A stretch of DNA of 40,454 bases from Nitrosopumilales archaeon (GTDB taxonomy: Archaea; Thermoproteota; Nitrososphaeria; Nitrososphaerales; Nitrosopumilaceae): positions 1 through 40,454 of the forward strand of contig JAEHKV010000161.1 of the NCBI GenBank assembly GCA_016838845.1, in the 5' to 3' direction. The notes beneath the pieces were generated by a model, which saw nothing but the letters and a program-made list of their open reading frames with translations, did no database searches and was not told the DNA's origin. A program made the translations under genes and the position numbers. Of this stretch, positions 30,080-32,359 are shown in pieces. Every line of letters starts with the position of its first letter. Position 1 is the stretch's first letter.

Positions 30080-30733
30080 CTACTCAAAGGTAGATGTAGA
30101 TGTGGTTGGAGACGAAAGACCTGGTGCGGATGGCACAGATGGGAATTTGTCTCCGATCTGTTGTTCAGCTACTGCAGATGCTTCTTGTAGAATCTTTTCT
30201 GTTTCTTCACTTGAAGTATCTGATTCTATGTTGAATGAATCGCCTGCAAGTGAATCCATCATAAGACCATTCAATGTCTGTGTCATAGAGTTTAATTCTG
30301 CATCTGCCTCTGGCATGAATCGTCCTAGTGATGATTTCAAGCCTTTCATTGTTGACATTGCGGGTCCGATTGCTATCATAGCATCGCCCAAGTCATGAAT
30401 GGTTGTCAATCGTAATTGTACTTGTTCTAATGACATCCTTGCATTGCCTAGCGTCCTAGTAACCTTTCTAATTTCCGCCAATTCGTTTGACAAAACTCTG
30501 CTTGTAGTAGTATCATGTTGTTGCATTGCAGTAACAACTCTTTGGAAGAGTTGTGCGTCTCTCTCACGTAGTTTTGTTAACATCGAATCCATCTTGGAAG
30601 TTTGGATTTGAAGTTTGTTCACTGCGTTTTGGATTCGTGGCTTCAATGCACCTTGAGGTTTACATACATCACGAATTTTGCTCGTAACACTTGGAGTCTC
30701 TTGACGAGACCAAGTCTTTTCGAATTTTGGCAT
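30080..30733 (-). CDS. cdvB: ESCRT-III-like cell-division protein (CdvB paralogue)
   Basis: A 217-residue Snf7-fold protein of the archaeal Cdv system, which forms membrane-constricting filaments in crenarchaeal-type division. The basic N-terminus (KPRIQNAVNKLQIQTSKMD) and long helical core rich in Q, M, L and T (FQRVVTAMQQHDTTTSRVL, then ELAEIRKVTRTL) match ESCRT-III. The last 50 residues are acidic then serine/proline-rich, lacking an obvious winged helix of canonical CdvB, so this is probably a CdvB paralogue. A TATA-like stretch lies at about 30749-30759 on the minus strand. Standing alone, it is not next to cdvA or cdvC in this window. Confidence 0.85.
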   Translation of the reverse strand: MPKFEKTWSRQETPSVTSKIRDVCKPQGALKPRIQNAVNKLQIQTSKMDSMLTKLRERDAQLFQRVVTAMQQHDTTTSRVLSNELAEIRKVTRTLGNARMSLEQVQLRLTTIHDLGDAMIAIGPAMSTMKGLKSSLGRFMPEADAELNSMTQTLNGLMMDSLAGDSFNIESDTSSEETEKILQEASAVAEQQIGDKFPSVPSAPGLSSPTTSTSTFE

Positions 30734-30831
30734 GCGTGCTACTTTTGGATTATACTCTTAATGGAGGGTGTATATTTAGATCAACTTGAGACTAAATTTA
30801 GCTAACAAATACGAATGGATGATGCACAGAA

Positions 30832-31602
30832 ATGGTAAAAATAGCAGTTTTTGATTCAGGTTTTGGCTCGCTTCCAATAATAAGAGCTATTCAAAAAACA
30901 ACAAAGTCTGAAATAATCTATTTTGCTGATCAAAAGAATTTTCCCTATGGCAAAAAGACAAAATCTCAACTTTATACTATTGTAAAACAAACTATTGATT
31001 TGTTAAAAAATAAATTTAATCCAGACTTGATAATTGTCGGATCAAACACTCCAACACTTCTTTTAGACAAAGTTTTTACATCAAACATTATAGGAGTTTT
31101 GCCACCATTAAAAGAAGCATCAAAAATATCAAAGACAAAAAACATTGCTATACTAGCAACAAAGACTGCAACAAAAAGTAAAGAACTATCAAATTATATT
31201 AAAAAAAATCAATTATCTGTTAAGACTAATGTAATTAAAGTCAATGCGTCGCCTTTGGTTGAGCTAGTAGAATCTGGAAAATTTATTACTAACAAGAAAT
31301 TATGTAGAAAGATTATAAAACAAACTCTTCATAATATTTTTTTTCAAAATAATATTGATGTTGTGACTTTGTCTAGCACACATTTACCATTACTAAAATC
31401 GATATTACAAGTAGAATTTCCAAGAATTACCTTCTTGGATCCTGCTCAAGAAGTAGCTAATAAAGTGAAAAAACTAACAATAAAAAAAAGATCCAAAAAA
31501 AATTCGCTAAAAATTTTTACATCTGGTAACACACAAACTTTTCAAAGACAATTAAGGAAAATTGGAATTAAAAACAAGATTAATTTTTTGTCTTTATCTT
31601 AA
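30832..31602 (+). CDS. Glutamate-racemase-family protein lacking both catalytic cysteines
   Basis: A 256-residue protein of the aspartate/glutamate racemase fold, close to MurI. FDSGFGSLPIIRAI and FADQKNFPYGKKT are family landmarks. In working MurI two cysteines act as acid/base, in xCNT and GCTH. Here these positions read IIVGSNTPTLLL (S71) and TLSSTHLPLL (S182), so both are serine. The protein probably does not racemise glutamate, and archaea of this group have no murein. It may have a different reaction or a binding role. The 3' end overlaps the convergent cbiF by 23 bases. I am sure of the family, not the function. Confidence 0.85.
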   Translation: MVKIAVFDSGFGSLPIIRAIQKTTKSEIIYFADQKNFPYGKKTKSQLYTIVKQTIDLLKNKFNPDLIIVGSNTPTLLLDKVFTSNIIGVLPPLKEASKISKTKNIAILATKTATKSKELSNYIKKNQLSVKTNVIKVNASPLVELVESGKFITNKKLCRKIIKQTLHNIFFQNNIDVVTLSSTHLPLLKSILQVEFPRITFLDPAQEVANKVKKLTIKKRSKKNSLKIFTSGNTQTFQRQLRKIGIKNKINFLSLS

Positions 31603-32359
31603 TCTTTGCTTTCCTAAAACCATGACTGAATGTTTTATCGTATAATCGTGAAAATTCATAGGACTTTGGTTTTATAACGTCTCCAATTATTACAATAGCA
31701 GTACGTGCGATCTTTTCTTTTCGAACTTTTTTTGCAATATCCATGATAGTGCCAATGAGAATTTTTTGATTTTTCCAACTTGCACGATAAACTACTGCGA
31801 CCGGAGTTGATTTCTTGTACCCTCCCTCAATTGCTTGCTTTACAATATCAGGTAGCAAATGAACACTCAAGTAAAATACCATTGTAGCCTTGTGTTTTGC
31901 TAACTCTGAAATCTGTTCTTGTTTTGGAACTTTAGTTCTATGTTCTGCCCTCGTTACGATAATTGTTTGTGTTACGCCTGGAAGAGTTAGCTGTGTACCC
32001 AAGGCTGCAGCAGAAGCCAAAAAAGATGTCACCCCTGGAATTATAACTGATTCAATCCCTTCATCATCTAGTTTATCAATTTGTTCTTTGATTGCTCCAA
32101 AGATTGTAGGATCTCCATCATGAAGTCTTACAACAAGTTTTCCTTTTTTTGCATTCTTTCTTAGCAGATCAAAAATTTCTTCGCGTACAAGTTTTGCTGC
32201 ATCATGTTTTTCGCCTTTCTTACAAAGGTTTACAATTGATGATGGAATTAATGAACCAGAATAAACTAGAACGCCGGCTTTCTGAATAAGTTTTTTAGCT
32301 TTTATAGTTAGTAGTTCAGGATCTCCTGGTCCACATCCCACAAAGTAAACTTTAGACAC
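31580..32359 (-). CDS. cbiF: Cobalt-precorrin-4 C11-methyltransferase
   Basis: Methylates C11 in the corrin pathway. In 259 residues: VYFVGCGPGDPELLTIKA, the CbiF/CobM-typical VLVYSGSLIPSSIV, VVRLHDGDPTIFGAI, the VIIPGVTSFLASAA loop, LTLPGVTQTIIVTR, and PVAVVYRASWKNQKIL. The tetrapyrrole methylase fold is complete. Its start overlaps the end of cbiL by eight bases, so cbiT, cbiL and cbiF are one operon. Last gene of that operon. Confidence 0.95.
   Translation of the reverse strand: MSKVYFVGCGPGDPELLTIKAKKLIQKAGVLVYSGSLIPSSIVNLCKKGEKHDAAKLVREEIFDLLRKNAKKGKLVVRLHDGDPTIFGAIKEQIDKLDDEGIESVIIPGVTSFLASAAALGTQLTLPGVTQTIIVTRAEHRTKVPKQEQISELAKHKATMVFYLSVHLLPDIVKQAIEGGYKKSTPVAVVYRASWKNQKILIGTIMDIAKKVRKEKIARTAIVIIGDVIKPKSYEFSRLYDKTFSHGFRKAKIKIKTKN

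Follow-up and report, generated by a model that had tools for sequence, protein, structure and literature searches.

The closest described relatives of the protein analysed here are the glutamate racemases MurI and RacE, whose mechanism relies on two catalytic cysteines. In the Asp/Glu racemase superfamily, changes of active-site cysteines can accompany new chemistry, as in arylmalonate decarboxylase and maleate isomerase, which are remote from MurI in sequence and retain at least one catalytic cysteine. For H. pylori MurI, the residues D7, S8, C70, T72 and E150, C181, T182, H183 are listed for the deprotonation of D-/L-glutamate (PMC6927343). According to the same paper, a Cys to Ser change in L. 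fermenti MurI lowers activity ~1000-fold (citing Glavas and Tanner 1999), and a Cys to alanine change abolishes MurI activity. In related cofactor-independent racemases a single cysteine change can alter the reaction, and Cys-to-Thr changes give one-way racemases or dehydratases (PMC8142540).

A homologue from ammonia-oxidising archaea (AOA) has been described under the name ‘GLUR’ (A9A551) in mSystems in 2025 (PMC12363236). In the passages of that paper covered here, the gene is called a glutamate racemase that is ubiquitous in AOA, virtually absent from non-AOA Nitrososphaeria and of bacterial origin; the necessary catalytic residues are said to be present, AOA are said to be able to use D-glutamate, and a structural match to 2gzm and a correlation with amoA are reported. 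Here we analyse a gene that very probably belongs to the same orthologous family, located in a stretch of 40,454 nucleotides from a Nitrosopumilales archaeon (the window). An initial annotation had proposed that this gene product either catalyses a different reaction or serves in binding, and we regard that proposal as a reasonable inference from the sequence. The features of the locus are collected in Table 1.

Table 1. Positions in the window of the MurI-like gene, its active-site codons and its neighbours
Feature	Position	Strand	Remarks
MurI-fold homologue, Ser71/Ser182 at both catalytic Cys sites	30832..31602	+	ATG start, 256 aa
Asp8-Ser9 codons, N-terminal-side counterparts of reported MurI catalytic residues	30853..30858	+	1.00 conserved in 102 distinct archaeal sequences and 31 MurIs
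Ser71 codon TCA, first catalytic Cys position, in GSNTPT	31042..31044	+	TCN in 106/106 distinct archaeal sequences
Glu147 codon, counterpart of the MurI catalytic-site Glu	31270..31272	+	0.99 conserved
Ser182-Thr183-His184 codons; Ser182 AGC is the second catalytic Cys position, in LSSTHLP	31375..31383	+	AGY in 106/106 distinct archaeal sequences; Thr183 and His184 1.00 conserved
CdvB1/B2-like (ESCRT-III family) paralogue, head to head with the MurI-like gene	30080..30733	-	NCBIfam CdvB1/B2 E=2e-47, below cut-off
Divergent intergenic region, 98 bp, with a block conserved across Nitrosopumilaceae	30734..30831	.	most likely part of the cdvB-paralogue promoter
cbiF (precorrin-4 C11-methyltransferase), tail to tail, neighbour outside the system	31580..32359	-	TIGR01465 311.5 bits

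A MurI fold with serine at both catalytic cysteine positions

The homology of the window protein to MurI and the racemase superfamily is clear from its matches to TIGR00067 (glutamate racemase) and to the PDB. All of its sequence relatives in the PDB are MurI, and so are the top structure matches of its AlphaFold2 model (pLDDT 94.5, from an alignment of 66 sequences), with TM-scores up to 0.88. The best PDB match of the model is B. anthracis MurI (2gzm, TM-score 0.87), and the DSGxG, PYG and TH motifs are kept, in agreement with the early remark that the fold motifs stay. Ser71 and Ser182 pair with the two MurI cysteines in both the MurI profile alignment and the PDB alignments. The two serine codons named at the outset, TCA and AGC (31375-31377), are read directly from the DNA.

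The window protein scores 121.8 bits against TIGR00067, under the cut-off of 146.65, and 30.9 bits against PF01177 (Asp/Glu/hydantoin racemase superfamily), for which the gathering score is 31. The TIGR00067 cut-off is passed in 14 genomes of the class, all from family f8, so that with the window protein failing, the glutamate racemase label is unevenly applied. The warning that automatic labels of this kind would mislead is thus upheld, both by the score and by the fixed serine pair described below.

The serine pair is fixed in ammonia-oxidising archaea

Relatives were gathered from whole genomes and GTDB contigs. All 124 archaeal sequences that span both sites are Ser-Ser (~105 distinct after duplicate removal, from four families), and each of the 31 distinct comparison MurIs is Cys-Cys, 30 of them bacterial and one, L138, from another Thermoproteota genome. 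The joint change of both cysteines, first suspected from one gene, therefore extends to all AOA homologues readable at both sites. A search for cysteine-bearing relatives, which would have made the change a local mutation, found none inside the AOA clade, and the ~105 distinct Ser-Ser sequences rule out a local mutation or an assembly error.

Across 106 distinct archaeal sequences, Ser71 is encoded by all four TCN codons and never by AGY, while Ser182 is encoded by AGC or AGT and never by TCN. The residue preceding Ser182 varies (S, G, C or A), whereas Ser182 itself is invariant. This codon pattern suggests that the pair is most likely of one origin, with synonymous change left free. TCY and AGY are each one substitution away from Cys, and no one-step reversion to Cys was found among the ~105 distinct AOA sequences.

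In a tree built without the two Ser/Cys columns, the AOA sequences are monophyletic (SH-aLRT 99), with a single switch between Cys-Cys and Ser-Ser. Being unrooted, and with nearly all of its bacteria drawn from one phylum, the tree leaves a bacterial origin of the AOA gene undecided. These observations point to replacement of both cysteines in the AOA common ancestor, with the serines kept since under strong purifying selection. As a separate observation, L138 (genome G450, of another Thermoproteota family) is an archaeal Cys-Cys MurI that scores above the curated cut-off and is nested among bacterial sequences in the tree.

The acid/base surroundings are kept while other pocket positions drift

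We compared 102 archaeal and 31 MurI sequences position by position. Common to both sets are D8, S9, G10, G12, Y30, D33, P38-Y39-G40, T73, E147, T183 and H184; the acid/base neighbours among them, Asp8, Ser9, Thr73, Glu147, Thr183 and His184, are 0.99-1.00 conserved in the archaeal sequences. Within the AOA family, whose members diverge down to ~30% identity, residues of the MurI catalytic site and the PYG motif are among the near-invariant positions. Fixed differences between the archaeal set and MurI are G to S13, T to S15, C to S71, C to S182 and Y/F to L185, and Pro74 occurs in the archaeal set only.

Other positions have loosened. Position 113 is Thr in 0.97 of the comparison MurIs and V, T or A in the archaeal set, and Asn72, which hardly varies among the comparison MurIs, is replaced by Ile in 9% of archaeal sequences. 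Both positions are assumed to be substrate contacts. Their drift beside a fixed acid/base network favours catalysis on a changed substrate over plain glutamate binding. Set against the H. pylori residue list (PMC6927343), we infer that only the two cysteines are altered in the window protein.

The gene tracks amoA and is missing or broken in several AOA

Archaeal amoA (PF12942) was found in 36 of 54 genomes tested, all in Nitrosopumilaceae (f1) and families f2, f3 and f8. The MurI-like gene is missing from all 18 tested genomes that lack amoA; two amoA-negative genomes of the class (G289 and G302) give weak partial family matches. By our own count, the 36 amoA-positive genomes comprise 25 with an intact copy, seven without and four with a broken or partial one, although an absence from a fragmented assembly may reflect a gap in the sequence. 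Order-wide, 187 of 275 genomes match, all within the same four families. The MurI-like gene is thus restricted to AOA among the genomes searched, and its distribution follows that of archaeal amoA rather than that of cobalamin genes. A search of AOA genomes for a separate canonical MurI gave no second strong TIGR00067 match.

Several AOA have lost the gene or carry a broken copy, which indicates that its role is dispensable for some. Two of these losses are firm. In the single-contig genome G004, presumably Cenarchaeum symbiosum, it is cleanly deleted between cdvB and cbiF. In G157 (L196) the gene, as read from the DNA, is broken after ~32 codons and followed by transposase-looking sequence. 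Frameshifts occur in the single-contig genomes G158 and G197, part of which may be sequencing error.

The cdvB paralogue is the more constant neighbour

As the initial annotation stated, the gene lies tail to tail with cbiF, which is on the minus strand and is overlapped by 23 bp at the 3′ end. The usual order in Nitrosopumilaceae is cdvB paralogue (-), MurI-like gene (+) and cbiF-cbiL-cbiT (-). In f2 and f3, cdvB adjoins the MurI-like gene and the cbi genes lie beyond cdvB; most f8 loci have neither. The cdvB paralogue, adjoining the gene in f1, f2 and f3, is therefore a more constant neighbour than cbiF. Two non-polymerising CdvB paralogues have been described in N. maritimus (PMC3684127), and by position and identity the neighbouring gene corresponds to one of them.

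The noncoding region between the two divergent genes contains the block TCTTAAT..GTGTATATTTAGATCAACTT.AGACTAAATTTAGCTAAC, with TTTAG repeats spaced 11-12 bp and the palindrome CTAAATTTAG. The block is conserved in most Nitrosopumilaceae loci aligned, where the flanking MurI-like proteins are only ~50-60% identical, and constitutes a candidate regulatory element. It is retained 5′ of cdvB both in G004, which has lost the MurI-like gene by deletion, and in G157, which has a broken copy. Since the block survives without an intact MurI-like gene, it most likely serves cdvB, and the head-to-head pairing is weak evidence for a division-gene link; the idea of such a link through a shared promoter is weakened accordingly.

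Discussion

We propose that the gene encodes an AOA-specific enzyme that uses the MurI fold for altered chemistry and does not racemise glutamate efficiently, a reading that we hold with roughly even confidence. The two-thiol proton transfer would be gone. The pocket would still be catalytic, its substrate being an amino acid or a dicarboxylate-like compound that is bound in a different way, where Ser71 may be held or activated by Asp8, and Ser182 by His184/Glu147. The putative reaction would then be a one-base elimination, cyclisation, isomerisation or hydrolysis instead of a racemisation. A bolder form of this proposal, in which a near-core AOA enzyme, acquired together with ammonia oxidation when the lineage arose, would run a new reaction through a Ser/Ser acid/base pair, is tentative and in our judgement slightly more doubtful than probable.

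The conservation of the active site is compatible also with a ligand sensor, in which the Cys-to-Ser pair, of the type also used to slow racemases for crystallography, would make a protein that binds glutamate or a similar acid without turnover and perhaps regulates the division gene next to it or nitrogen metabolism. In a cofactor-independent racemase, Cys-to-Ser mutants keep a normal fold but show much reduced turnover (PMC11602996). The pocket residues and fold are conserved, and in f1, f2 and f3 the head-to-head neighbour is of the CdvB family. However, the invariance of Asp8, Glu147 and His184 alongside drift at position 113, and in part at Asn72, is opposite to the pattern expected of a protein that only binds glutamate; the promoter block stays at cdvB where the MurI-like gene is deleted and so implies no regulatory link, and no output domain is fused to the protein. 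We regard a purely binding role as unlikely, though it is the strongest of the alternatives.

The published reading is that of a slow but genuine glutamate racemase, with D-glutamate as a carbon or nitrogen source for AOA. The non-cysteine catalytic residues are indeed conserved. The parts of PMC12363236 covered here report presence across AOA, the 2gzm match and the amoA correlation, and Ser mutants of a bacterial MurI are reported to keep ~0.1% activity. The copy in G134, which we take to be N. maritimus SCM1, reads ASNTP and LSSTH with Leu185 and is thus Ser-Ser, at odds with the catalytic residues claimed. Moreover, if a change to serine costs ~1000-fold, the two changes together should cost no less, and selection for D-glutamate racemisation should favour the one-step return to Cys that is missing from the AOA sequences. 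A slow racemase is for these reasons improbable. Because both catalytic cysteines appear to have been serine since the AOA ancestor, the usual glutamate racemase label and the D-glutamate use claimed in 2025 (PMC12363236) are probably wrong.

By analogy with hydantoin racemases, the protein might act with a hydantoinase/oxoprolinase-like (HyuA-like) partner, whose gene follows immediately, in the same orientation, in 9 of 20 f8 loci. The two genes show no co-occurrence in f1: by our own count a HyuA-like gene is found in 38 of 138 f1 genomes with the MurI-like gene and 9 of ~30 without. The f2 and f3 genomes searched have none, which makes the partnership very improbable, and we rejected it. 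The AOA-type HyuA-like protein, ~700 aa long at L032 and other f8 loci, has no close curated family (its best NCBIfam matches are far under cut-off) and occurs in part of AOA and in G046 (f11). Least credible of all is a role in the cobalamin pathway, which had been raised from the cbiF-cbiL-cbiT neighbours: the gene adjoins cbiF in most Nitrosopumilaceae loci and lies near it, past cdvB, in f2 and f3, but the two are convergent rather than co-directional, cbiF occurs without the MurI-like gene in G048 (f13) and in G004, G006, G014 and G224 (f1), and among the 27 f8 loci spanning 7 kb or more, 20 hold no cbi gene in the stretch read, so that co-occurrence mostly refutes the link and we discarded it.

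The serine pair removes the sequence basis of the published ecological claim that AOA racemise D-glutamate, and it shows that most genomes of an abundant microbial group have a gene with a wrong automatic label. It also raises the question of what a MurI pocket with two serines does; if the pocket is catalytic, a racemase family that has been studied well would include an unusual acid/base pair, Ser/Ser.

The AOA protein resembles MurI/RacE (EC 5.1.1.3, TIGR00067) in fold, length, DSGxG, PYG and TH motifs, and equivalents of Asp8/Ser9/Thr73/Glu147/Thr183/His184. It differs in that both catalytic cysteines are serine, Ser13, Ser15, Pro74 and Leu185 are fixed and Thr at 113 is not kept; its AOA hosts are not known to make murein, and the window protein falls under the curated cut-off. 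The ‘GLUR’ of PMC12363236 is treated there as a complete glutamate racemase, and the serine replacements are not mentioned in the passages covered. E. coli EcL-DER (an L-aspartate/glutamate racemase) and M. maripaludis MMP0739 (PMC8142540), from a related racemase family, likewise have a catalytic cysteine replaced, but in these a single cysteine has become Thr and the other is kept, whereas in the AOA protein both have become Ser. Arylmalonate decarboxylase and maleate isomerase share the superfamily with the AOA protein, which differs from them in keeping neither cysteine.
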